Shown: one piece after another, positions 17,591-54,351 of the stretch
Numbering within the stretch: position 1 is the first letter of the stretch
How the letters are laid out: every line of letters begins with the position of its first letter
Assembly (NCBI RefSeq): GCF_000411295.1
Contig: NZ_KE150421.1
Location: 193,265-257,264 of the forward strand
Length of the DNA: 64,000 nt
From: Paenisporosarcina sp. HGH0030
GTDB taxonomy: Bacteria; Bacillota; Bacilli; Bacillales_A; Planococcaceae
Direction of reading: 5' to 3'
Made by a program: the position numbers and the translations under genes
Notes under the pieces: model-generated
Databases searched by the model: none
The model's input: the letters and a program-made list of their open reading frames with translations, nothing else
Told to the model about the DNA's origin: nothing

Positions 17591-18364
17591 ATGAATATTT
17601 ATGTGTTGGTAAAACGTACATTTGATACAGAAGAAAAGATTGTCGTTTCTGGTGGCAAAATTCAGGAAGACGGCGCTGAATTCATCATTAACCCTTACGA
17701 TGAATACGCAATTGAAGAAGCGATTCAAGTCCGCGACGCACACGGTGGCGAAGTGACTGTATTGACAATTGGTGGGGAAGAAGCTGAAAAGCAACTTCGT
17801 ACAGCTCTTGCAATGGGGGCTGATAAAGCAGTTCTGATTAACACTGAAGATGATTTGGACGAAATGGACCAATTTACAGCTGCTCAAATATTGGCAGATT
17901 ACTTGAAAGATAAAAACCCAGATTTAATATTAGCTGGTAACGTTGCCATCGATGGTGGATCTGGACAAGTTGGACCACGTGTTGCCGACTTGTTGGACAT
18001 CAACTATGTAACAACTATTACTAAATTAGAAATTAACGGAACACAAGTTAGTATCGTTCGTGATGTGGAAGGCGATTCTGAAGTACTTGAAACGTCATTA
18101 CCTTTACTTGTTACCGCTCAACAAGGTTTGAACGAACCTCGTTATCCTTCTTTACCGGGTATTATGAAAGCGAAAAAGAAACCACTTGAAGAAGTGGAAT
18201 TGGATGATTTGGATATCGATGAAGATGATGTAGAAGCAAAAACGGAGACAATAGAAATTTATTTGCCTCCTAAAAAAGAAGCAGGTCGCGTACTTCAAGG
18301 CGATCTTTCAAACCAAGTACAAGAATTGGTGCAATTACTTCGTACAGAAGCAAAAGTCATTTAA
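17591..18364 (+). CDS. etfB: Electron transfer flavoprotein beta subunit
   Basis: 257 residues, starting MNIYVLVKRTFDTEEKI. Binds AMP and pairs with EtfA to pass electrons from acyl-CoA dehydrogenases to the quinone pool. The signature VAIDGGSGQVGPRVADLL and the beta-subunit recognition loop QQGLNEPRYPSLPGIMKAKKK are present. ATG 17591 has GGGAGG 9 bases upstream. The acidic stretch at about residues 206-222 is normal for Bacillus EtfB. Confidence 0.95.
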   Translation: MNIYVLVKRTFDTEEKIVVSGGKIQEDGAEFIINPYDEYAIEEAIQVRDAHGGEVTVLTIGGEEAEKQLRTALAMGADKAVLINTEDDLDEMDQFTAAQILADYLKDKNPDLILAGNVAIDGGSGQVGPRVADLLDINYVTTITKLEINGTQVSIVRDVEGDSEVLETSLPLLVTAQQGLNEPRYPSLPGIMKAKKKPLEEVELDDLDIDEDDVEAKTETIEIYLPPKKEAGRVLQGDLSNQVQELVQLLRTEAKVI

Positions 18365-18401
18365 TCGAATCTGAAGATTTGTAATTGGAGGGAATCACAT
18401 C

Positions 18402-19376
18402 ATGACAAAAAAAGTAATCGTACTGGGTGAAGCACGTGAAGGTGCTTTACGTAATGTATCTTTTGAAACTATCGCTGCAGCTAAGAAAATTTCAGGCGGT
18501 GGAGAAGTTGTAGCAGTTCTTCTTGGAGACTCTGTACAATCATTAGCAGCAGAAATGATTCATTATGGAGCTGACCGTGCTGTCACTGTTGAGCATCCAC
18601 ATTTGAGATCTTATACATCTGATGGCTTCAGTCAGGCATTCATGGCAGTTGTTGAAAGTGAAAGCCCAGATGCAGTTGTTTTCGGACATACAGCATTAGG
18701 CAAAGATTTGTCACCAAAAGTGGCAAGTAAACTAAAATCAGGTCTTATTTCTGATGTTACTGATATCGAAGGAGAAGGCGCTGACGCTGTATTTATCCGT
18801 CCGATTTTCTCAGGTAAAGCATTCGAAAAAGTGAAAATCAAAGATGGTATTGATTTCATTACAATCCGTCCTAACAATATTGAACCTTTAGCTCACGATG
18901 CTAGTCGTTCAGGCGATGTTTCATCTTTATCTGTGGATATCACGAACCTTCGCACTGTCATCAAAGAAGTTGTTCGTAAATCAACTGAAGGCGTAGATTT
19001 ATCAGAAGCGAAAGTTATCGTTGCTGGTGGTCGTGGCGTGAAGAGTGAAGATGGATTTGAGCCGTTAAAAGAGTTAGCAAATCTTTTAGGTGGTGCTGTT
19101 GGTGCATCTCGTGGTGCATGTGACGCTGACTACTGTGACTACTCTCTTCAAATTGGTCAAACAGGTAAAGTGGTAACACCTGACCTTTATATTGCTGCAG
19201 GTATTTCTGGGGCAATCCAACATTTAGCTGGTATGTCAAACTCGAAAATCATTGTTGCAATCAATAAAGATCCTGAAGCAAACATTTTCAAAGTAGCTGA
19301 CTATGGTATTGTTGGTGACTTGTTCGAAGTCATTCCAATGTTGACTGAAGAATTCAAGAAAATGAAAGCTAACTAA
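18402..19376 (+). CDS. etfA: Electron transfer flavoprotein alpha subunit
   Basis: 324 residues, FAD-binding partner of EtfB. N-terminal Rossmann-like domain, then the FAD domain (from about 200) with VIVAGGRGVKSEDGFEPL, GGAVGASRGACDADY, IGQTGKVVTPDLYIAAGISG and NKDPEANIFKVADYGIVGD, the conserved ETF-alpha signature. GGAGGG precedes ATG 18402. Last gene of the fad/etf operon, with a strong terminator 10 bases after the stop. Confidence 0.96.
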   Translation: MTKKVIVLGEAREGALRNVSFETIAAAKKISGGGEVVAVLLGDSVQSLAAEMIHYGADRAVTVEHPHLRSYTSDGFSQAFMAVVESESPDAVVFGHTALGKDLSPKVASKLKSGLISDVTDIEGEGADAVFIRPIFSGKAFEKVKIKDGIDFITIRPNNIEPLAHDASRSGDVSSLSVDITNLRTVIKEVVRKSTEGVDLSEAKVIVAGGRGVKSEDGFEPLKELANLLGGAVGASRGACDADYCDYSLQIGQTGKVVTPDLYIAAGISGAIQHLAGMSNSKIIVAINKDPEANIFKVADYGIVGDLFEVIPMLTEEFKKMKAN

Positions 19377-19386
19377 TTTAAATACG

Positions 19387-19417
19387 ACTCCGCGAAGCGA
19401 AAGCTTGCGGAGTTTTG
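19387..19417 (+). terminator. Terminator of the etf operon
   Basis: ACTCCGC/GCGGAGT outer stem with an inner AAGC-GAAA-GCTT hairpin, then TTTTGTTTTGG. Confidence 0.88.
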
Positions 19418-19445
19418 TTTTGGCAATAAAAAAGAATACTAGAAG

Positions 19446-19529
19446 ACGAGAGAGTGCGTAGGGACTGGCATTTAGAGAGCGAGAAGCGGTTCCCTTTCCG
19501 CGGACGAACTTGCAAGTATCATCTCTCGT
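19446..19529 (+). repeat. 84-bp element with terminal inverted repeats
   Basis: ACGAGAGA (19446) and TCTCTCGT (19522) bound a GC-richer segment with an internal hairpin GCGG-TTCCCTTT-CCGC. It lies between the etfA terminator and the short repeat array. It resembles a small dispersed intergenic repeat, but no second copy is in this window. Confidence 0.4.
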
Positions 19530-19532
19530 GTA

Positions 19533-19611
19533 AATTAGGAGGAAATTGGTTAGTTGCTACTAAATCGCGAAAGTTGATCTCATTTTCAAAAAGTTGCTCC
19601 AAAGAATGAGC
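19533..19611 (+). repeat. Short phased repeat array A (leader plus three 20-bp units)
   Basis: A 26-bp leader (19533-19558), also found at 28088 with one internal difference, runs into cores AGTTGCTAC (19552), AGTTGATCT (19572) and AGTTGCTCC (19592), exactly 20 bp apart; the bases between cores differ. With the terminator, the IR element and the trxA promoter it accounts for most of the 349-base gap between etfA and trxA. Confidence 0.6.
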
Positions 19612-19679
19612 AGTGTTCATTATGTTCATTTTTAGCTATTATAAGGTTGAGCAAAAAAGTAGAAGCACTATTTACCACA

Positions 19680-19688
19680 TGCTATACT
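19680..19688 (+). promoter_or_regulatory. Extended -10 promoter of trxA
   Basis: TGCTATACT is an extended -10 (TG-N-TATACT) 37 bases before the trxA ATG. No good -35 at the right distance, which extended -10 promoters tolerate. Confidence 0.55.
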
Positions 19689-19725
19689 ACGTTTAGAGTT
19701 TGTATTTAGAGGAGGATGTTTTAAT

Positions 19726-20040
19726 ATGGCAATTGTACACGGAACAGATCAAAGCTTTTCAAGTGAAATTTCAGACGGCTTAGTTTTAGTCGATTTTTGG
19801 GCACCTTGGTGTGGACCATGTAAAATGATCGCTCCAGTTCTTGAAGAATTAGATGCTGACATGAATGGCAAAGTAAAAATTGTAAAAGTTGATGTAGATG
19901 AAAACCAAGAAACAGCTAGCAACTTCGGTATTATGTCAATTCCGACATTGGTACTTTTCAAAGATGGGCAACCTGTCGATAAAGTAGTTGGATTCAACCC
20001 GAAAGAAGCTTTGGCTGAATTAGTAAACAAACACGCATAA
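19726..20040 (+). CDS. trxA: Thioredoxin
   Basis: 104 residues with the active site WCGPC (about residues 28-32, in FWAPWCGPCKMIAP), the cis-Pro segment MSIPTLVLFKDG and the C-terminal GFNPKEAL. Reduces disulfides of cytoplasmic proteins including ribonucleotide reductase. AGAGGAGG sits before ATG 19726. Single-gene unit between its own promoter and terminator, in the B. subtilis position before uvrC. Confidence 0.97.
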   Translation: MAIVHGTDQSFSSEISDGLVLVDFWAPWCGPCKMIAPVLEELDADMNGKVKIVKVDVDENQETASNFGIMSIPTLVLFKDGQPVDKVVGFNPKEALAELVNKHA

Positions 20041-20087
20041 TCTTTTCAATTGGCGTTCTAGTCTTATATTGTAAAAGAAATATTATT

Positions 20088-20122
20088 AAAACCGGGTACC
20101 CATGGGCACCCGGTTTTTTTTA
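20088..20122 (+). terminator. Terminator of trxA
   Basis: AAACCGGGT pairs with the ACCCGGTTT segment around CCATGG, then eight T. Confidence 0.9.
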
Positions 20123-20138
20123 ACAGGTGATGAAAATG

Positions 20139-21929
20139 ATGAATGATTTAATTCAACAGAAATGTGCGATTTTACCTGATCAACCAGGTGTTTACTTAAT
20201 GAAAGATCGCCAAAGCACTATTATTTATGTGGGCAAAGCCAAAGTGTTGAAAAATCGTGTACGTTCTTATTTTACGGGGAGTCATGATGGAAAAACACAG
20301 AGACTCGTCCAGGAAATTGAAGATTTTGAGTACATCGTAACATCTTCAGATATTGAAGCTCTCATTCTGGAATTGAATTTAATCAAGAAGCATGATCCGA
20401 AATATAACATCATGCTAAAAGATGATAAAACGTATCCTTATATAAAAATAACAGGTGAAAATCATCCGAAATTGATAACAACCAGAATCGTTAAAAAGGA
20501 TAAAGGGAAATATTTTGGTCCTTATCCAAACGCATATGCGGCGAGTGAAACGAAAAAATTACTAGATCGTTTATACCCGTTACGCAAATGTCCGACATTA
20601 CCAGATCGGGTTTGTTTGTATTATCATTTGGGCCAGTGTCTAGCACCTTGTGTTAAAACAATCGAGCAAGACGCATACAGAAAAATTATTGATGAAATCA
20701 CACGGTTCTTAAACGGTGGCTATCAGCAAGTCAAACAAGAATTGACGGAAAAAATGTCATCGGCAGCAGAGAACTTAGAGTTTGAAAGAGCAAAAGAATA
20801 CCGTGATCAAATCACACATATTGAAACGGTTATGGAAAAACAAAAAATGACGACCAATGATTTTACCGATCGTGATATTTTTGGTTATGCCATCGATAAG
20901 GGCTGGATGTGTGTGCAAGTATTCTTTGTACGCCAAGGGAAGTTAATCGAGCGAGATGTTTCATTATTCCCGTTATATCAAGATCCAGAAGATGAATTCC
21001 TGACGTTCCTCGGTCAGTTTTATGATAAACCGAATCATATCAAGCCAAAAGAAGTATATTTGCCAAGTGCGGTGGATTTGCAACTGGCAAGCCAGCTTCT
21101 TGAAGTAAAAGTGGCTTCTCCGAGTCGTGGGCAGAAAAAACAAATGATTGATCTGGCGACGAAGAATGCAGAAATCGCTATCCGTGAAAAATTCCAGCTC
21201 CTAGACCGACAGGAACAACGAACGATTGGTGCAGTGGAAGAACTGGGGATTGCAATGGATATTGCGCCTCCTCTTCGAATTGAGGCATTCGATAATTCAC
21301 ATATTTATGGAGCAGATGCCGTCTCAGCAATGGTATCGTTTATTGATGGAAGACCGAATAAAAAGGACTATCGAAAATACAAAACGAAAACAGCTGCCCG
21401 TCATGATGATTACGGAGCCATGCGTGAAGTCATTCGTAGACGTTATACTCGTGTGCTGAAGGATGAATTGCCTCTCCCCGATTTAATTGTCATTGATGGT
21501 GGGAAAGGGCAAATGGAAATCGCCCGTGAAGTGATTGAAGATGAACTCGGTTTGTCTATTCCGATTGCAGGATTAGCCAAGGATGCGAAGCACCAGACAT
21601 CTTCGTTGTTATATGGGGAACCCCCACAGATCATTCCCTTGAAACGAACAAGTGAGGGGTTTTATTTGCTACAACGGATTCAGGACGAAGTGCATCGATT
21701 TGCGATTACATTCCATCGGCAACAGCGTGGGAAACAGACGATTGCTTCCGCTTTGGATGGGTTTGAAGGAATCGGTCCTAAACGCAAAAAAATGTTGTTG
21801 AAGCATTTTGGCTCTGTAAAACGAATCAAAGAAGCATCAGTGGAAGAGCTGAAACAATCAGGTTTGCCATTGCAAATCGCGGAATCCATGTCTGAATATT
21901 TTCAAAATGAGTCATTGTCAAAAGAGTGA
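20139..21929 (+). CDS. uvrC: Excinuclease ABC subunit C
   Basis: 596 residues. Makes both incisions around a UvrB-marked lesion. N-terminal GIY-YIG nuclease ([19 protein letters not shown], about 15-35), Cys cluster region [23 protein letters not shown] split over about 150-172, UVR motif near 205-235, C-terminal RNase H-like domain with [10 protein letters not shown] and VIDGGKGQ, and a tandem HhH at the end ([18 protein letters not shown]). Of several clustered starts I choose ATG 20139, which aligns with B. subtilis UvrC and lies 8 bases from AGGTGA. Confidence 0.95.
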
Positions 21930-22015
21930 GTATATGATATTCTTGACTCACTGAAATTGAATCACTGATGTATGTTCAATAAGGAGCATCCGCTTCCTTT
22001 TGAACAAACATCGAA

Positions 22016-22271
22016 TAAGTGGTGATAGAGGCGCGGAAATCAACAGTAGCTTTCTCGAGGATGAACAGATCCGTTGAAGGAAAGTGAAAGGGAAATTCGC
22101 CGAAGTTCGACATCCTGTATCAGATGTCGTGCTGGTTTTGCATTGAATAAATGCAGGATTGTCAGAATCTAATCGATTCTGGAGGGCTATCTCACATGGA
22201 CGCTTCTTTTGAACGTGCATGCATGGAGACAGCTTTTCACGGATTACCCGTAGATAAGGCTGTCTTTTTTA
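22016..22271 (+). promoter_or_regulatory. Lysine riboswitch (L-box) with terminator
   Basis: Aptamer about 22016-22195: the conserved GTGATAGAGGCGCGG, then AGTAGC, GAAAGGGAAATTCGCCGAAG region, and the closing CTATCTCAC. A terminator follows at 22227-22265 (AGACAGC/GCTGTCT, then T run to 22271). Lysine binding should favour termination before lysC. TTGACT at 21943 is a likely -35, but I see no good -10 at standard spacing. The riboswitch fills the 371-base gap between uvrC and lysC. Confidence 0.92.
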
Positions 22272-22300
22272 GCTTCTTTGGAAATAAGGGAGAGTTTACA

Positions 22301-23524
22301 TTGAGTCGCATTGTCATGAAATTTGGTGGTACGTCCGTAGGCAACACTGAACGGATCCGTAATGTCGCAAAACGCATAATCGGTGAAACAGCAAAAGGCC
22401 ATGAAATCGTAGTAGTCGTATCAGCGATGGGGAAAACGACAGATGAATTAATGAGTCTGGCTGGGGATTTATCAGCAGAACCTTCAAAACGTGAAATGGA
22501 CATGTTGCTGTCAACAGGGGAACAAGTAACAATTGCTTTGTTGACAATGGCACTTCAACATATGGGGCAAGATGCGGTTTCGTTTACGGGATGGCAGGCA
22601 GGAATCGGAACGGAATCCGTTCATCGCAATGCTCGAATCGAACATATAGATACTGTTCGTATGGAGCAGGCTTTGACGGATGGAAAAGTGGTTGTTGTAG
22701 CCGGATTCCAAGGGATGGATACGTATGGAGAAATTACGACACTCGGACGTGGTGGGTCGGATACGACGGCGGTTGCAATTGCAGCATCGCTAGGAGCGGA
22801 CCAGTGTGATATTTACACGGATGTCGATGGCATCTATACGTCAGACCCTCGATATGTGGATGGGGCAAGAAAATTGCAGGAGCTATCCTATGACGAAATG
22901 CTGGAACTTGCTAACTTAGGAGCTGGGGTTTTGCATCCTAGGGCAGTGGAATTCGCTAAAAATTATTGCATGCCACTAAGTGTCCGTTCTAGCTTAAGTG
23001 AAGATACAGGAACCATATTATTGGAGGAACCTACTATGGAAAAAAACTTGATAGTGCGTGGTGTCGCATTCGAACCGGAAATTGTAAGGGTTACGGTAGG
23101 CTATGAAGTGCCTTTTAACGGCTCACTAGCCAAAATTTTCACTACTCTTGCAAAACATCATGTAAACGTTGATATCATTGTTCAAAGCATTATGGAAGGC
23201 GTGCAGCCAAGTGTTTCTTTCTCCATTAAGAAAGAAGATTATGCAGAAACTGTTCAAGTCTTGGAAAGTAAAAAAACGGAGTTGGGATACCAATCTACCA
23301 ATTTTGAAGTTGGATTGGCCAAAGTGTCGATTGTTGGGTCAGGAATGGTTTCAAATCCAGGGGTTGCTGCACAAATGTTCGATCGCCTCCGCAAAGAAGG
23401 AATTCCTGTGAAAATGGTCAGTACTTCGGAAATTAAAGTTTCGGTTGTTGTACCTGAAAGTGCGATGCTACAAGCCACAAATGCATTGCATGATGAATTT
23501 GGATTAGCTGTTGTTCGAGTATAA
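22301..23524 (+). CDS. lysC: Lysine-sensitive aspartokinase (alpha subunit)
   Basis: Phosphorylates aspartate, first step to diaminopimelate and lysine. 407 residues. Kinase domain with VMKFGGTSVG (about 4-14), VVVSAMGKTTDEL, TLGRGGSDTTAVAIAASL and YTDVDGIYTSDPR; two C-terminal ACT domains from about 260. Start TTG 22301 with AGGGAGAG 6 bases upstream; anything longer would run into the riboswitch terminator. It carries an internal start for the beta subunit at Met246. Controlled by the upstream L-box. Confidence 0.95.
   Translation: MSRIVMKFGGTSVGNTERIRNVAKRIIGETAKGHEIVVVVSAMGKTTDELMSLAGDLSAEPSKREMDMLLSTGEQVTIALLTMALQHMGQDAVSFTGWQAGIGTESVHRNARIEHIDTVRMEQALTDGKVVVVAGFQGMDTYGEITTLGRGGSDTTAVAIAASLGADQCDIYTDVDGIYTSDPRYVDGARKLQELSYDEMLELANLGAGVLHPRAVEFAKNYCMPLSVRSSLSEDTGTILLEEPTMEKNLIVRGVAFEPEIVRVTVGYEVPFNGSLAKIFTTLAKHHVNVDIIVQSIMEGVQPSVSFSIKKEDYAETVQVLESKKTELGYQSTNFEVGLAKVSIVGSGMVSNPGVAAQMFDRLRKEGIPVKMVSTSEIKVSVVVPESAMLQATNALHDEFGLAVVRV
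23036..23524 (+). CDS. lysC: Aspartokinase beta subunit from internal start
   Basis: Inside lysC and in frame, ATG 23036 is preceded by TTGGAGGA at about 7 bases. The predicted 162-residue product (MEKNLIVRGVAFEPEI...) is the two-ACT-domain regulatory part. In B. subtilis aspartokinase II the beta subunit is made from an internal start at the same residue, Met246, with nearly the same N-terminus. Start and site are seen; expression is inferred from that homology. Confidence 0.75.
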   Translation: MEKNLIVRGVAFEPEIVRVTVGYEVPFNGSLAKIFTTLAKHHVNVDIIVQSIMEGVQPSVSFSIKKEDYAETVQVLESKKTELGYQSTNFEVGLAKVSIVGSGMVSNPGVAAQMFDRLRKEGIPVKMVSTSEIKVSVVVPESAMLQATNALHDEFGLAVVRV

Positions 23525-23583
23525 AAACATTTCATGATATGATGAAAATAGTTTCATAATCATCATGAGAGGCAGTGAGATAA

Positions 23584-23955
23584 ATGAACTGGCATATCGT
23601 GGAGGATTTAATTAAAAAAGCACAACGTGATGGACAGTTTGACAATTTGCCGGGAGCTGGGAAACCGTTACCGCCGGATGAATTTGATCATTATCCAGAA
23701 GACATTCGTATGGTAATGCGCATTTTAAAAAACTCAGGGCATGATGAAGAAGCTCAGTTCGTGAAAGAAGAAATGAGTGACTTAGAGCATCAAATGAAAA
23801 AAGCCACACAACGCGAAAAAACAGAACTTGAACAGCAATATAATCAAAGACTCACCCAATTGAACCGTATGTTATCTCAAAAAGGAATCAAAACAAATAG
23901 TAATGTTTTTAAACAATATCAGTCTCAATTGGATAACAGATTGAATTGGGATTGA
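23584..23955 (+). CDS. DUF1992 (DnaJC28-like) protein
   Basis: 123 residues. The N-terminus has the DUF1992 pattern: IVEDLIKKAQRDGQFDNLPGAGKPL, then DEFDHYPEDIRMVMRILKNSG. The rest is a highly charged predicted coiled coil (about 65-105). The domain is shared with DnaJ homologue C28 but there is no J domain here. Function unknown. GAGGCAGTGAG precedes ATG 23584. It lies between lysC and yslB, a slot that is empty in B. subtilis as I recall it. Confidence 0.85.
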   Translation: MNWHIVEDLIKKAQRDGQFDNLPGAGKPLPPDEFDHYPEDIRMVMRILKNSGHDEEAQFVKEEMSDLEHQMKKATQREKTELEQQYNQRLTQLNRMLSQKGIKTNSNVFKQYQSQLDNRLNWD

Positions 23956-23957
23956 AA

Positions 23958-24003
23958 AAAGCGGGCAGACACTCCATTTGGAAGTGACTGCCCGCTTTCT
24001 TTT
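23958..24003. terminator. Bidirectional terminator
   Basis: 11-bp stem AAAGCGGGCAG/CTGCCCGCTTT between the converging DUF1992 gene and yslB, T run on the plus strand. Confidence 0.9.
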
Positions 24004-24042
24004 CAGCTTCAACTCGATTTTTACTATCGAGTCAGTGAAGCT

Positions 24043-24456
24043 TTAAACTTTTTCTTTTAGATCCCATTTCACATGGAATTGAACGGAGTTTTTCTTCAGT
24101 TGTTTTTCTTCAAAGCATTCTGTCATAAAACCACCCAGTTTTTGTTGCTGCTGAGCCAGGAATCCTGCTTCCAGGCGGAAACATCGTTTCTCGAACTGCA
24201 GGGCATCGGGTTCTCCAGTCAATACATAAAATGCTTCATCTTTTGTACTTTGTTCAAGTGTTAGAATGCCCCAGCCCGCTTCTTGAAAAAAAGATGTCGT
24301 TTCTTCCATGGAAAACATCTGGAACTTGCGGGCTAAATCTTTTCCGGCCCAATATAAAATATCTTCTTCGTGTTTCCCTAAAATTGTCGAAAGTACATGA
24401 TCTCGAATTAATTCGTAACCAAAAGTGGGTACCTTTTTTGTCTCTGTCATTGTCAT
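24043..24456 (-). CDS. yslB: DUF2507 protein YslB
   Basis: About 137 residues, matching the YslB/DUF2507 family: YELIRDHVLSTILGKHEEDILYWAGKDLARKF, FFQEAGWGILTLEQ, and a C-terminal FRLEAGFLAQQQQ...VKWDLKEKV. The fold resembles the V4R/TRAPP-like family; cellular role unknown. Start uncertain: ATG 24456 (MTMTETKK) is chosen, but TTG 24489 and ATG 24450 are possible and no ribosome site is strong. Lies between lysC and sdhC on the opposite strand. Confidence 0.8.
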   Translation of the reverse strand: MTMTETKKVPTFGYELIRDHVLSTILGKHEEDILYWAGKDLARKFQMFSMEETTSFFQEAGWGILTLEQSTKDEAFYVLTGEPDALQFEKRCFRLEAGFLAQQQQKLGGFMTECFEEKQLKKNSVQFHVKWDLKEKV

Positions 24457-24591
24457 CTGAATCCCGCTTTCTGGCTTAATTGCCTTCAAACTTTTTTAAT
24501 ATAAGAATTTTTCATGGACAAGGTAGTTAAAATAGTACAACACCGAGAATTTACCTGATTTAAATTGCCTTATGTAGTGGGCTTCCTTGCC

Positions 24592-24620
24592 TTGACGCTC
24601 CCTTATGATGGGAGTACAAT
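24592..24620 (+). promoter_or_regulatory. SigA-type promoter of sdhCAB
   Basis: TTGACG (24592-24597), 17 bp, TACAAT (24615-24620). It leaves an untranslated leader of roughly 100 bases before sdhC, a place where sRNA control is known for B. subtilis sdh (FsrA); I did not identify such a site. Confidence 0.8.
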
Positions 24621-24731
24621 AAACATGTCATAATATTGTACCATGATGAGATATGCAGTCAATGTTGCTTTCGTTCCATACGAAGGTCTGATCTTGTCTG
24701 CCTATTTTCAGTACTGAGGGGGGTAACAGTC

Positions 24732-25343
24732 TTGTCGAAAGATCGTGAATTTTATTTGCGCCGTTTACATTCTTTACTTGGAATCATTCCAGTAGGATTG
24801 TTCGTGACGCAGCATTTGGTTGTTAACCATTTTGCTACAAGAGGAGAAGAGGCTTTTAACAAAGCATCTCACTTCATGGAAAGTTTACCATTCGTATTGT
24901 TTTTAGAATGGTTTGTCATCTACATTCCATTGATGTTCCATGCGTTCTATGGTGTGTACATAGCCTTTACTGCGAAAAATAACACACAGCGTTATGGTAC
25001 ATTCCGTAACTGGATGTTTGTTTTGCAACGTATTACCGGGGTCATTCTAGTCGTGTTTATCGCATGGCATTTATTCGAGACACGATTCCAAAAAGCAATT
25101 GGTGCTGATGAAGTTAACTTTGACATGATGGCTGATATATTAGCAAATCCATTAATGTTTGTATTCTACGTGGTTGGTGTAGTATCTGCAACATTCCATT
25201 TAGCTAACGGTATTTGGTCATTCTTGGTAAGCTGGGGTATCACTCAATCACCTAGGTCACAACGAATTTCAACTTACGTGACGATCGGTATCTTCTTAGC
25301 ATTGACAGTAATCGGCGTTCGTGCACTTCTTGCATTCGTGTAA
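24732..25343 (+). CDS. sdhC: Succinate dehydrogenase cytochrome b558 subunit
   Basis: 203 residues, five membrane helices, diheme membrane anchor of succinate:menaquinone reductase. Heme-ligand His residues lie in RRLHSLLG, QHLVVNHF, FHAFYGVY and AWHLFETR, as in B. subtilis SdhC. TTG 24732 is the start, with GAGGGGGG 7 bases upstream; longer readings extend toward the promoter. sdhA begins about 50 bases downstream. Confidence 0.95.
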   Translation: MSKDREFYLRRLHSLLGIIPVGLFVTQHLVVNHFATRGEEAFNKASHFMESLPFVLFLEWFVIYIPLMFHAFYGVYIAFTAKNNTQRYGTFRNWMFVLQRITGVILVVFIAWHLFETRFQKAIGADEVNFDMMADILANPLMFVFYVVGVVSATFHLANGIWSFLVSWGITQSPRSQRISTYVTIGIFLALTVIGVRALLAFV

Positions 25344-25394
25344 TAAGTTTCTGAAATTGCTTGATTACTATTAAAAAGAGGAGTGAGAAGAATC

Positions 25395-27149
25395 ATGGCG
25401 AAAAGTAAATTGATTGTTGTCGGCGGTGGTCTAGCTGGTTTAATGGCAACAATGAAAGCAGCAGAAGAAGGAACAACAGTAGAATTATTCTCATTAGTTC
25501 CTGTTAAACGCTCACACTCAGTGTGTGCTCAGGGCGGAATTAACGGAGCATTAAATACAAAAGGTGAAGGCGATTCAACTGACAATCACTTTGATGATAC
25601 AGTATACGGCGGGGATTTCCTTGCGAATCAACCACCAGTAAAAGCATTGGCAGAAGCAGCACCTGGAATCATTCGATTATTCGATCGTATGGGTGTTATG
25701 TTTAACCGTACACCTGAAGGGTTATTAGATTTCCGTCGTTTCGGGGGAACAATGTTCCATCGTACAGCTTTCGCAGGCGCTACAACTGGTCAACAATTGC
25801 TTTATGCACTTGATGAACAAGTACGTCGCTACGAAGTTGACGGTCTTGTAACGAAATACGAAAACTGGGAATTCCTAGGTGCAATCTTAGATGACGACGG
25901 CGTTTGTCGCGGAATCATGGCTCAAAACTTGAAAACTATGGAAATCCGTCCTTTCCGTGGTGACGCTGTCATCATGGCAACAGGTGGTCCTGGTATTATT
26001 TTTGGAAAATCAACAAACTCTATAATCAATACAGGCTCTGCAGCTTCAATTGTTTATCAACAAGGTGCAACCTACGCAAATGGCGAATTCATTCAAATTC
26101 ACCCTACAGCGATTCCAGGAGATGACAAACTTCGTTTAATGTCCGAATCAGCGCGTGGTGAAGGTGGACGTATTTGGACATATAAAGACGGTAAACCTTG
26201 GTACTTCCTTGAAGAAAAATATCCTAGTTACGGGAACTTGGTACCTCGTGATATCGCAACTCGCGAAATTTTTGATGTGTGTGTTAACCAAAAACTTGGG
26301 GTTAACGGCGAAAACATGGTATTCTTGGATCTTTCACACAAAGACCCGAAAGAATTGGATATCAAGCTTGGCGGAATCATTGAAATTTATGAGAAATTCA
26401 CAGGTGAAGATCCCCGTAAACTTCCAATGAAAATCTTCCCAGCAGTCCATTATTCAATGGGTGGACTATGGGTTGACTACGATCAAATGACAACTATTCC
26501 TGGTTTATTTGCTGCAGGTGAGTGTGATTACTCTCAACATGGCGCAAACCGACTTGGAGCAAACTCATTACTTTCTGCAATTTATGGCGGAATGGTTGCA
26601 GGTCCTAACGCAGTTAAATATATGAGTGGACTAAAAACTCATGCTGAAGATATGCCATCAACAATTTTTGATGCACACACGGCTGCAGAGCAACAAAAAT
26701 GGGATGAAATTATGTCTCTTGACGGTACTGAAAATGCATATGTCTTGCATAAAGAGCTTGGCGAATGGATGACAGATAACGTAACAGTAGTTCGTTATAA
26801 CGACCGTTTACAAGCAACTGATGAAAAAATTCAAGAACTTCTTGAGAGATTTAATAATATCAACATTAATGACACTCAAAAGTGGTCCAATCAAGGTGCT
26901 ACTTTCGCGCGTCAATTGAAAAATATGCTATACTTAGCTCGCGTTATTACGCAAGGTGCATTGTTACGTGATGAAAGTCGTGGTGCTCACTACAAGCCAG
27001 ATTTCCCAGAACGAGATGATGAGCAATTTATGAAAACAACTATGGCGAATTTTGATCCAGCTACTGGAGCGCCGGTCATTCATTATGAAGAAATAGATGT
27101 TTCATTAATTCCACCACGTAAACGTGACTATTCATCGAAAGGGGATTAA
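25395..27149 (+). CDS. sdhA: Succinate dehydrogenase flavoprotein subunit
   Basis: 584 residues. FAD-binding Rossmann motif VVGGGLAGLMATMKAAEEG at the N-terminus, the covalent-FAD site RSHSVCAQGGINGAL (His near residue 39), substrate-site HPTAIPGD and SARGEGGRIW, and GECDYSQHGANRLGANSLLS. Oxidises succinate to fumarate in the TCA cycle. ATG 25395 has AGAGGAG upstream. The sdhB gene starts 5 bases after the stop. Confidence 0.97.
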   Translation: MAKSKLIVVGGGLAGLMATMKAAEEGTTVELFSLVPVKRSHSVCAQGGINGALNTKGEGDSTDNHFDDTVYGGDFLANQPPVKALAEAAPGIIRLFDRMGVMFNRTPEGLLDFRRFGGTMFHRTAFAGATTGQQLLYALDEQVRRYEVDGLVTKYENWEFLGAILDDDGVCRGIMAQNLKTMEIRPFRGDAVIMATGGPGIIFGKSTNSIINTGSAASIVYQQGATYANGEFIQIHPTAIPGDDKLRLMSESARGEGGRIWTYKDGKPWYFLEEKYPSYGNLVPRDIATREIFDVCVNQKLGVNGENMVFLDLSHKDPKELDIKLGGIIEIYEKFTGEDPRKLPMKIFPAVHYSMGGLWVDYDQMTTIPGLFAAGECDYSQHGANRLGANSLLSAIYGGMVAGPNAVKYMSGLKTHAEDMPSTIFDAHTAAEQQKWDEIMSLDGTENAYVLHKELGEWMTDNVTVVRYNDRLQATDEKIQELLERFNNININDTQKWSNQGATFARQLKNMLYLARVITQGALLRDESRGAHYKPDFPERDDEQFMKTTMANFDPATGAPVIHYEEIDVSLIPPRKRDYSSKGD

Positions 27150-27154
27150 TAATC

Positions 27155-27928
27155 ATGAACGCAACAGCAACTAAAACCGTCGTTTTTGAGATCCTTCGTC
27201 AAGACTCTACGGATTCTACCCCGTATTGGGAAAAATTCGAGTTAGATTATCGTCCAAATATGAACGTTATTTCTGGATTAATGGAAATTCGTCGTAATCC
27301 AGTAAATACAGATGGTAAACACACAACACCTGTAAACTGGGATATGAACTGTTTGGAAGAAGTATGTGGAGCATGTTCGATGGTCATCAATGGCCGTCCA
27401 CGTCAATCATGTACAGCTCTAGTTGATAAATTGGAGCAACCTATTCGCTTAGAACCAATGAAAACATTCCCTGTTGTACGCGACTTAATCGTTGACCGTT
27501 CACGTATGTTTGATTCATTGAAAAAAGTTAAAGCTTGGGTTCCAATAGATGGATCTTATGATCTAGGTGATGGACCACGTATGCCTGAACGTAAACGTCA
27601 ATGGGCATATGAACTATCTAAATGTATGACTTGTGGCGTTTGTTTGGAAGCATGTCCAAACGTAAACACAAATTCAGATTTCATGGGCCCAGCACCGTTA
27701 TCACAAGTACGTCTTATGAATGCGCATCCAACGGGTGCCATGAATAGAGACGAGCGTCTAAATTCCATCATGGGTGATGGCGGACTTGCAAACTGTGGTA
27801 ACTCTCAAAACTGTGTAGTAGCATGTCCTAAAGGAATTCCTTTGACTACTTCTATCGCAGCTCTAAACCGTGACACTACGGTTCAAATGTTCAAAAACTT
27901 CTTCGGAAGCGACCACATGGTTGACTAA
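27155..27928 (+). CDS. sdhB: Succinate dehydrogenase iron-sulfur subunit
   Basis: 257 residues carrying the three clusters: [2Fe-2S] Cys in CLEEVCGACSMVINGRPRQS, [4Fe-4S] in CMTCGVCLEACP, and the third in CGNSQNCVVACPKG. Passes electrons from SdhA to the SdhC hemes. AAAGGGGA precedes ATG 27155. End of the sdhCAB operon, followed by a strong terminator. Confidence 0.97.
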   Translation: MNATATKTVVFEILRQDSTDSTPYWEKFELDYRPNMNVISGLMEIRRNPVNTDGKHTTPVNWDMNCLEEVCGACSMVINGRPRQSCTALVDKLEQPIRLEPMKTFPVVRDLIVDRSRMFDSLKKVKAWVPIDGSYDLGDGPRMPERKRQWAYELSKCMTCGVCLEACPNVNTNSDFMGPAPLSQVRLMNAHPTGAMNRDERLNSIMGDGGLANCGNSQNCVVACPKGIPLTTSIAALNRDTTVQMFKNFFGSDHMVD

Positions 27929-27943
27929 GAAGAGCTTAATTTG

Positions 27944-27980
27944 TCAGCCTCCCGCATTTTGCGAGAGGCTGCTTTTTTGT
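27944..27980 (+). terminator. Terminator of sdhCAB
   Basis: CAGCCT at 27945 with AGGCTG at 27966, extended by an inner CCGC/GCGA pairing, then seven T. Confidence 0.85.
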
Positions 27981-28005
27981 TTAAAGAAGTGTGCAGGGAG
28001 CGTTA

Positions 28006-28169
28006 AGTTGCTAAAATCGCTCCGAAATACCGAAAGTTGCTCCAAAATCGAAGCGAAGCCAATTTATTAATCCAATAATTCCGTCAGAATTAGGAGGTAA
28101 TTGGTTAGTTGCCCTAATCATGGCAGAAGTTGCCCCAATAACTCATAAAGTTGCCCCTATCCAAAAAAA
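28006..28169 (+). repeat. Short phased repeat array B
   Basis: Cores AGTTGCTAA (28006) and AGTTGCTCC (28035), 29 bp apart; then, after a leader (28088-28113) almost identical to that of array A at 19533, cores AGTTGCCCT (28107), AGTTGCCCC (28128) and AGTTGCCCC (28149) exactly 21 bp apart with unlike linkers. It occupies most of the 365-base gap between sdhB and ysmA. Confidence 0.6.
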
Positions 28170-28247
28170 TCCCTCTCTAAATTTATCCATTTCTATCCAT
28201 TAAATTCTTTCCCCTTCAGAAGAAACTTTGTTACAATATCATCAACA

Positions 28248-28263
28248 ATGAATCACCATTCAT
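28248..28263 (+). promoter_or_regulatory. Palindrome upstream of ysmA
   Basis: ATGAAT-CACC-ATTCAT, 6-bp perfect arms, just after a -10-like TACAAT (28232-28237) and 31 bases before the ysmA ATG. It looks like a small operator. It is related to, but shorter than, the FadR site, so the binding protein is unknown. Confidence 0.35.
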
Positions 28264-28293
28264 AAAATACATAAACCAAAGGAGAAATTCATT

Positions 28294-28740
28294 ATGCGTG
28301 CATCTTATATCCAAGACCCAGAGCAATGGGTAAGTGGGTTTCATTTTTCAGTACCGGTTCAAGTTCGTTTCAGTGAAACGGATATGTATGGACATCTGAA
28401 CAATACATATAACTTTTCTTATTTCGAGTTTGCGCGAATTGAATATCTTAAACAAATCGGCTTGATGAATGATTGGTTGGATCCAAAAGGTAAGACGATT
28501 CCGGTTGTTGCCGATTTACAATGCGATTATGTAAAACAAGTATTCTTTGATGAAAAGCTTCAGATTCATGTGAAAGCTGATTCGGTGGGTACTTCATCAG
28601 TGGATATCCATTACCATGCCACGAATGAAAAAGGGGAAACTGTTTTCACGGGTAGGGGAACTGTTGTGCAAATAAGCAAGGCAACTGGTAAGGGATCGCC
28701 TTGGACAGAAGAAGAAAAATCGTTATTCCTACCCAATTAG
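28294..28740 (+). CDS. ysmA: Acyl-CoA thioesterase-like hotdog protein
   Basis: 148 residues of the 4-hydroxybenzoyl-CoA thioesterase (4HBT) hotdog family: VRFSETDMYGHLNNTYNFSYFEFARIEYL holds the usual Asp/His/Asn active-site region at about residues 29-45. It sits before gerE exactly like B. subtilis ysmA. Substrate unknown; acyl-CoA hydrolysis is inferred from the family. AAAGGAG precedes ATG 28294. Confidence 0.88.
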   Translation: MRASYIQDPEQWVSGFHFSVPVQVRFSETDMYGHLNNTYNFSYFEFARIEYLKQIGLMNDWLDPKGKTIPVVADLQCDYVKQVFFDEKLQIHVKADSVGTSSVDIHYHATNEKGETVFTGRGTVVQISKATGKGSPWTEEEKSLFLPN

Positions 28741-28744
28741 CCGT

Positions 28745-28773
28745 CACCGCCTTTTATCTTCTGACATACGTTA
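28745..28773 (+). promoter_or_regulatory. SigK-type promoter of gerE
   Basis: CACC (28745-28748), 16 bp, CATACGTTA (28765-28773), an exact match to the known SigK pattern AC-N16/17-CATANNNTA, 30 bases upstream of gerE, which is a SigK target in B. subtilis. Confidence 0.75.
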
Positions 28774-28802
28774 CTAGGAAGAGTGGATAGGAGGGGCGTA
28801 TT

Positions 28803-29027
28803 TTGTCAGAACGAGCACATCATCGTTCATTATTAACAGGACGAGAAAGAGAAATTTTTCAATTGTTAGTGCGTGATTATTCAACGAAAGATATTTCCAT
28901 TCAACTCAATATCAGTGAGAAAACCGTGAGAAATCACATCTCGAATACCATCCAAAAGTTGGGCGTATCAGGCAGATCACAAGCGATACTCGAACTTTTA
29001 CGACTTGGCGAATTAGCACTAGACTGA
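28803..29027 (+). CDS. gerE: Spore-coat transcription factor GerE
   Basis: 74 residues, a stand-alone LuxR/GerE-type HTH: LTGREREIFQLLVRDYSTKD followed by ISEKTVRNHISNTIQKLGVSGR. It controls late mother-cell coat genes with SigK. Length and sequence match GerE closely and the neighbours (ysmA, ysmB) are the same as in B. subtilis. Start TTG 28803 after ATAGGAGGGG. A SigK-type promoter lies directly upstream. Confidence 0.96.
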   Translation: MSERAHHRSLLTGREREIFQLLVRDYSTKDISIQLNISEKTVRNHISNTIQKLGVSGRSQAILELLRLGELALD

Positions 29028-29103
29028 GTATGTCTTGCCAATTTCCGCAAAAGACGTCACAATGAATACACAAGTAATCGTATTCAGGGAGTGGATTCAG
29101 CAC

Positions 29104-29568
29104 ATGACAGAGCAAATTTCGAGCAATGAACATAACCATAACCAGGAGCAAGTAGCTTTTCTGGAAAAAGAACTTCGTTATATATCAGGCATTATCAAAC
29201 AAAAAGGTCGCCAAATTTTAAGTAACTATACTGTGACGCCACCTCAATTTGTTGCGTTGCAATGGTTGTTTGAACATGGTGACATGACCATTGGTGATCT
29301 TTCTACCAAAATGTATTTGGCATTCAGTACGACAACGGATTTAGTCGACCGGATGGAAAAGAACCAACTTGTCATGCGTGTTCGTGATGAGCAAGATCGA
29401 CGTGTCGTTCGCATTCATTTATTAAAAGAAGGCGAGCGCGTGATTGAAGAAGTTATTCAAAAACGTCAAGATTATTTGCAAGATATTTTGTCTGATTTTG
29501 ATGCTGTAGAAGTGCAACAGTTGTCGAGCCTTCTCCAAAGACTTCATGTAGAAATGAAAGAGGATTGA
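29104..29568 (+). CDS. ysmB: MarR-family regulator YsmB
   Basis: 154 residues. Winged HTH: TPPQFVALQWLFEHGDMTIGDLSTKMY, then STTTDLVDRMEKNQLVMRVRDEQDRRVVRIHLL, the DxRxxR wing of MarR proteins. Target and ligand unknown. I choose ATG 29104 with AGGGAGTGG upstream; an earlier ATG (29062) lacks a site. racE follows after 10 bases, so the two are likely co-transcribed. Confidence 0.88.
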   Translation: MTEQISSNEHNHNQEQVAFLEKELRYISGIIKQKGRQILSNYTVTPPQFVALQWLFEHGDMTIGDLSTKMYLAFSTTTDLVDRMEKNQLVMRVRDEQDRRVVRIHLLKEGERVIEEVIQKRQDYLQDILSDFDAVEVQQLSSLLQRLHVEMKED

Positions 29569-29578
29569 GGCGAATCTC

Positions 29579-30376
29579 GTGAATACACCAATCGGCGTGA
29601 TCGATTCAGGTGTTGGCGGCTTAACGGTTGTCAAAGAACTTATGCGACGGTTGCCCAATGAGCAATTTCTCTACATTGGAGATACAGCGAGATGTCCATA
29701 TGGACCGCGTTCAGCAACTGAAGTGCGGAAATTCACATGGCAAATGGCGGAAGCACTGAAAGCGCAATCCATAAAAATGCTCGTTGTCGCGTGTAATACA
29801 GCAACAGCGGTCGCACTTGAATCCTTACAAAAATATTGCCCGTTCCCAGTCGTGGGGGTAATTTTCCCAGGGGCGCGAGCAGCTATAAAAGCAACAAGAC
29901 GTTCTGAAGTCTGTATATTGGGGACTGTAGGTACTATTCAAAGTGGTGCTTACGAGAAGGCTTTGAAGGCTTTATCATCTTCCTGTCATACCGTTCCACT
30001 TGCTTGCCCGGCATTTGTTCCACTAGTTGAAAGTGGCGAATATGAAGGCGAATTTGCGAAGGAATTGGTTGAAAAGACACTCGAACCATTGCAAAAAGAA
30101 TCATTTGATACGTTAATATTGGGATGTACTCATTACCCTTTATTACAGGATCTTATTGAAAAGGCGGTTGGTCCGCATGTGAAGGTTCTTTCATCAGCCG
30201 AAGAAACGGCCGATGAAGTGGATGCTATCCTCAACTATTACCAGAAGCAAAGAGAGCAACCGAGTAAGGTACCGCACATTTTCTATACAACGGGTTCCAT
30301 ACCAATGTTCAGGACCATTATTACGAAATGGCTTGAAATCGAAAACCCAACAATTCAACAAATATCATTTAAATAA
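29579..30376 (+). CDS. racE: Glutamate racemase
   Basis: 265 residues. Interconverts L- and D-glutamate for peptidoglycan. IGVIDSGVGGLTVVKEL at the N-terminus, first catalytic Cys in VVACNTATA (about residue 73), second in LGCTHYPLLQ (about 184). GTG start 29579 after TTGAGG. In B. subtilis the next gene is gerM; here a terminator and then rph follow directly. Confidence 0.96.
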   Translation: MNTPIGVIDSGVGGLTVVKELMRRLPNEQFLYIGDTARCPYGPRSATEVRKFTWQMAEALKAQSIKMLVVACNTATAVALESLQKYCPFPVVGVIFPGARAAIKATRRSEVCILGTVGTIQSGAYEKALKALSSSCHTVPLACPAFVPLVESGEYEGEFAKELVEKTLEPLQKESFDTLILGCTHYPLLQDLIEKAVGPHVKVLSSAEETADEVDAILNYYQKQREQPSKVPHIFYTTGSIPMFRTIITKWLEIENPTIQQISFK

Positions 30377-42463: not shown

Positions 42464-42568
42464 CAACCTGGAATGGCAAACTGTCTACCTGGAAGTCGTT
42501 TCTATCTACTTGGAACCGCAAACGGTCAACCTGGCACGCGATATTGTCAACCTGGAGCAACAACCATT
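42464..42568 (+). repeat. Short phased repeat array C (five 21-bp units)
   Basis: Cores CAACCTGGA (42464), CTACCTGGA (42485), CTACTTGGA (42506), CAACCTGGC (42527), CAACCTGGA (42548): start-to-start distance is exactly 21 bp each time and the 12 bases between cores differ. On the minus strand the core reads TTCCAGGTTGAC-like. All frames show 7-residue periodicity only because 21 is a multiple of 3; no ribosome site supports a gene. Together with the terminator and hemA promoters it fills the 435-base gap. Confidence 0.75.
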
Positions 42569-54177: not shown

Positions 54178-54219
54178 TTCGATGGATGAAATCTAGGATT
54201 CGAGGGAAGATATCTAGAT
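54178..54219 (+). repeat. Two-unit 21-bp repeat D1
   Basis: TTCGATGGATGAAATCTAG at 54178 and TTCGAGGGAAGATATCTAG at 54199 start exactly 21 bp apart and match at most positions. A third unit may follow in decayed form. Confidence 0.5.
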
Positions 54220-54267: not shown

Positions 54268-54351
54268 TTTAGTTGGAAAATATGGAACTTTAGTTGGAAA
54301 TATATCGCGTTTAATCGGAAAATTTGAACCTTTAGTTGGAAAAAGCTGTTG
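54268..54351 (+). repeat. Short phased repeat array D2 (four 21-bp units)
   Basis: Cores TTTAGTTGGAAA at 54268, 54289 and 54331 and TTTAATCGGAAA at 54310, each start exactly 21 bp after the last; the 9 bases between cores vary. The reverse-strand core TTTCCAACTAAA begins like the reverse core of array C (TTCCAGGTTGAC). The 408-base gap between valS and folC holds the terminator, D1, D2 and an AT-rich stretch to 54498 in which I see no gene. Confidence 0.75.

Follow-up and report, generated by a model that had tools for sequence, protein, structure and literature searches.

Dispersed arrays of 20-21-bp direct repeats at gene 3' ends in Paenisporosarcina and other Planococcaceae

Results

Arrays in the window

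The window is the whole analysed stretch of DNA, 64,000 nucleotides from Paenisporosarcina sp. HGH0030. Array A lies 3' of etfA and its terminator and 5' of trxA. Its leader (19533..19557, + strand), which ends in the 6 bases of the first AGTTGC core, is followed by a class A (TCC-type) array with 20-bp steps (19552..19603, + strand). The array has three cores at 19552, 19572 and 19592, and the second is degenerate (AGTTGATCT), reading AGTTGA. Orthologues of array A are present in genomes G006 and G004. Array B lies 3' of sdhB and its terminator and 5' of a thioesterase gene. Its leader (28088..28112, + strand) is followed by class B (CCC) units with 21-bp steps (28107..28160, + strand), whose three cores are at 28107, 28128 and 28149. 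A degenerate, leaderless pair of class A (TCC) cores, at 28006 and 28035 (28006..28049, + strand), is found directly after the sdhB terminator and just upstream of array B; at this site G004 has a full TCC array and then one CCC unit. A third AGTTG array, of class C (AGTTGGAAA) with 21-bp steps, follows a terminator at 54271..54343 (+ strand), and the class C pattern has 4 matches in the own genome, 46 in G005 and 28 in G007. Both the degenerate pair and the third array had been overlooked in the sequence-only reading of this DNA.

That reading had described a leader at 19533 and 28088 with one internal difference, merging into phased AGTTGC units with 20-bp steps in array A and 21-bp steps in array B, and all of this was confirmed. 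The leader is 25 bp long, AATTAGGAGG[A/T]AATTGGTTAGTTGC, and its expected number of copies in shuffles is 0. The difference is A/T at leader position 11, where A and T each occur in 43% of 103 genus copies. It was also reasonable to dismiss the AGGAGG as a usable ribosome site, and we rejected a coding function: the TTG frame is not kept open, being open in 46 of 81 arrays compared with 41 for the +1 frame.

Several other features were noticed in the window. A second dispersed repeat with GCGGTTCCCTTTCCGCGGAC occupies 19473-19530, between the etfA terminator and the leader of array A, and parts of it recur elsewhere in G000 and G006, at several places. A short 21-bp tandem repeat (TTCGAGGGAAGAAATCTAGGA) is found at 54178-54217, just upstream of the class C array, and a further 21-bp phased array at 42464-42515 has the core CTACCTGGAA, which is unrelated to AGTTGC. 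A lysine riboswitch (RF00168) at 22018-22197 (+ strand) scored 126.6 bits, well above the gathering score, while a match to the SR1 small RNA family at 23958-24149 (- strand) was sub-threshold, with 31.1 bits against a gathering score of 45.

Spread of the leader and anatomy of the units

With up to 3 mismatches allowed, the leader occurs 10 times in the own genome (3.52 Mb), and the reversed-pattern control gave 0. In the genus, the leader was found in 7 of 9 genomes, with 37 copies in G005, 18 in G007, 14 in G001, 11 in G004, 10 in the own genome, 9 in the other genome of the same species and 2 in G003. It is absent from G002 and G008 at up to 3 mismatches, and therefore the leader is dispensable. 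In a scan of 84,980 named species, from which entries close to the window's own genome may be missing, the exact leader is listed only in Paenisporosarcina. Ten places in the genome and most of the genus support the earlier view that leader plus phased units make a defined element, and the same counts refute its alternative, a recent local duplication with the leader absent elsewhere. Chance low complexity is ruled out by the zero expectation in shuffles, by the genome and genus copies and by the period peaks at 20/21 described below, so that we attach practically no probability to either origin. Arrays A and B belong to a non-coding repeat family that is dispersed between the genes of Paenisporosarcina.

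At the 103 leader sites the leader is followed by 1-9 units, which begin AGTTGCNNC... and recur at 20-21 bp steps; 301 of the 309 units are 20 bp (n=111) or 21 bp (n=190) long, and 8 have other lengths. The AGTTG core is retained across units. Class A units, of about 20 bp, read AGTTGC-NNN-SAAATCNNGAA, and class B units, of 21 bp, read AGTTGC-NNN-AATMANNNNNAAA, so the variable part of a unit is only about 5-8 bp. The triplet after AGTTGC (CCC, TCC, AAC, GAC or ATC) differs by genome and class: the own genome and G004 have TCC and CCC, G005 has AAC and CCC, G007 has GAC, and G003 has a GATC type. The prevailing forms are AAC units in G005 and TCC units in G004, while the leaders of G007 are mostly GGAT with GAC units. 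A short palindrome, GTTGCAAC, exists in the AAC class only, and the units are otherwise direct repeats. The leader strand of the arrays is A-rich in all six genomes tabulated.

Fixed sites with changing sequence

The arrays stay at orthologous sites yet change their unit class in concert. For example, the 3' end of sdhB carries the TCC remnant and CCC array in the own species, TCC with one CCC unit in G004, a GAC array in tandem with a duplicated terminator in G007, a CCC-like array in G001 and the GATC type in G003; no array is present at this site in G005, G008 or G002. At locus L008, the units are CCC in the own species but TCC in G004. In G005 and G007 the terminator, leader and array are duplicated together in tandem. 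Between two strains of the own species, from alignments judged by eye, units were gained or lost, and the differences within arrays are mostly at positions where the family is polymorphic. Sites copied from one another would give this concerted change, and so would adaptation of the arrays to a partner that itself changes; the data do not distinguish these.

Unrelated families with the same period

A pattern of three AAGTTG cores 20-21 bp apart was found in 46 of 261 Planococcaceae genomes, belonging to 9 of 19 genera; controls were near zero in most genomes with matches in a few (e.g. G223 and G244), and some pattern matches may be coding repeats. The out-of-genus matches of a narrower pattern, AGTTGCNCC, resemble by eye collagen-type coding repeats with 18-bp spacing. 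An unbiased period scan counted 8-mers that reappear at each step length, and it gave a 20/21 peak in all the Planococcaceae sets studied closely (G001, G007, G138, G061, G096, G105 and the own genome), some of the stretches having been selected for the arrays in them. G105 had 23 recurrences at 20/21 in 100 kb compared with 0-2 at neighbouring periods; the own genome had 13 at 20/21 in 464 kb compared with at most 6 elsewhere. The background of G096 was higher, with 3-8 at many periods, and part of it came from masked N runs that correspond to long arrays. Clustering of 65 arrays gave 30 core families, which include AGTTG sub-variants, so the independent number is lower. Several Planococcaceae genomes thus hold many families with unrelated cores, all with 20–21 bp units and mostly intergenic, and the AGTTGC arrays are one family within a much broader phenomenon. 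In G105 (contig C1, 20001-80000), CTATACGACAC arrays form very dense clusters, in tandem about every 230 bp (L307-L309).

The phenomenon is patchy within Planococcaceae, since randomly taken 20-kb stretches of several other genera gave no arrays. In 359 kb from other Bacilli families, covered by 20 kb or less per genome so that absence there is weak, only two arrays (at least 2 chains) were found, both coding-like by eye. We found no description of the phenomenon in the literature searched, which covered few subscription journals.

Position relative to genes

Arrays are enriched between convergent genes and depleted between divergent genes: the de novo arrays have a convergent to divergent ratio of 25:6 compared with 72:82 in the background (Fisher p 6e-4). 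Twenty de novo arrays fall inside ORFs of more than 150 codons, as called by simple ORF picking, and some of these ORFs may be spurious through the stop-poor arrays. Of the leader arrays, 26 are convergent, 26 co-directional, 12 opposite and 5 divergent, and they favour the strand of the upstream gene by 26:12. In these location counts the genes were called by simple ORF picking, and orthologous loci enter repeatedly. The neighbours identified by Pfam are ordinary genes. Across families, the strand of the arrays shows no skew with respect to the genes (17 of 31).

This arrangement bears on whether the arrays are 3' UTR elements, with units that bind a protein or small RNA or affect mRNA stability. 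Leader arrays mostly follow a gene in the same orientation; at L006, L007 and L008 the stop codon directly adjoins the leader or falls inside it; and the A-rich leader strand also fits such an element. On the other hand, many copies sit 3' of an intrinsic terminator, and RNA folding of ten arrays gave mixed z-scores from +1.8 to -4.95 with no shared structure. The covariance models of Rfam 15 had no match at array A or B (window 18000-30000). A mixture of 20- and 21-bp steps, found with unrelated cores, is better explained by DNA, and DNA action is favoured over RNA because there is no strand skew over the families. We therefore regard an RNA element as unlikely. We also considered Rho sites; an excess of C over G is seen in five genomes and is missing in G007, so the idea is not general.

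Curvature and transposase

20–21 bases correspond to two turns of the DNA helix, and phased tracts might bend the helix unaided. Some other array families score high in a wedge model, while the AGTTG arrays have a mean z of -0.1 over 81 arrays. Intrinsically curved DNA is thus a very improbable explanation of these arrays. An AT/GC sub-period of about 10 bp inside the units was found by permutation (p 3e-4), and it is weak under a stricter control with real 20-mers (p 0.015). The Y1 transposase domain (Y1_Tnp, PF01797) is absent from G000, G006 and G007, all of which carry arrays, and we therefore rejected the RAYT/REP model, as the transposase is not required.

Discussion

The best reading is that these are dispersed in-phase arrays at gene 3' ends, of the REP/STAR-like kind, and the comparison with known systems shows both likeness and difference. 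The STAR element of Staphylococcus is a 14-bp repeat, T(G/A/T)TGTTG(G/T)GGCCC(C/A), whose copies stand 40 bp or more apart (PMC3532100). Like STAR, the arrays are dispersed intergenic direct repeats of Bacillales with unit number varying by locus, locus-specific spacers and no assigned function, and the STAR core also has TGTTG (PMC3532100). The arrays are not STAR elements: their AGTTGCNNC... units recur at 20-21 bp steps and follow a leader, and the class at the same site depends on the species.

REP/BIME elements bind gyrase and are located at gene 3' ends. REPs are palindromes tied to RAYT transposases (PMC3733652). The arrays are similarly intergenic and numerous, lie close to 3' ends and in convergent gaps, and have species-specific sequences. 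They differ in being direct repeats that are mostly non-palindromic and present where PF01797 is not found. For BOX, a leader-like part is combined with a variable number of an internal unit, and our family resembles it in this and in being dispersed and limited to certain species. However, BOX of Streptococcus pneumoniae forms extensive secondary structure (PMC3049150), and no common structure appeared over the ten arrays folded. The arrays are unlike CRISPR arrays, in which spacers are about 25-40 bp, compared with a variable part of about 5-8 bp here. Plasmid iterons are direct repeats about two helical turns long, set in rows. Unlike them, the arrays are scattered over the chromosome behind ordinary genes and not gathered at a replication origin.

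We account for the arrays, with a probability of about 0.4, as non-coding repeats that act as in-phase double-stranded DNA sites at gene 3' ends. Double-stranded DNA action is favoured because of the strict two-turn step in unrelated cores, the absence of strand skew and the weak 10-bp sub-period. The arrays would then be rows of putative sites two helical turns apart, on which a DNA-binding or DNA-wrapping protein might sit along one face of the helix by the 3' ends of transcription units. Candidate roles, by analogy with REP/BIME, are absorbing supercoils or stopping read-through. Copies would change together by copying between sites or through a changed specificity of the binding partner. 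Several results stand against in-phase DNA sites: the bias towards the strand of the upstream gene is not predicted by an orientation-free DNA function, curvature is not raised, the stricter control leaves only a weak 10-bp sub-period, and G002 and G008 do without the leader.

Nearly as likely as in-phase protein sites is a selfish or neutral non-autonomous repeat that has no function for the host and has spread and expanded by recombination or by an enzyme whose step is fixed at 20-21 bp. The species-specific bursts (GGAT with GAC in G007, AAC in G005 and TCC in G004), the tandem duplications and the gain and loss of units between strains are consistent with it, and pneumococcal BOX, RUP and SPRITE were judged parasitic from their distribution (PMC3049150). 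Against this, the arrays persist at orthologous sites over genus-level divergence, families with unrelated cores have the same period, and no transposase requirement was found. The avoidance of divergent (promoter) gaps also argues against a neutral repeat, although purifying selection against insertion would give the same result.

A broader proposal is that a Planococcaceae-wide system makes or maintains unrelated, two-turn-locked intergenic arrays, and that a trans-acting factor or a fixed-step copying enzyme shifts its specificity between species, leading to concerted class switching. We put this forward as a doubtful idea. Dispersed intergenic repeats are common, and it is the sharing of one strict two-turn period by unrelated sequences that sets the Planococcaceae families apart; within one bacterial family, this points to a constraint on the shape of the DNA and not on its letters. 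Class switching at fixed sites offers a natural experiment through which the reader or copier of the arrays could be found, and the arrays make the role of STAR- and REP-like repeats testable in easily grown bacteria.
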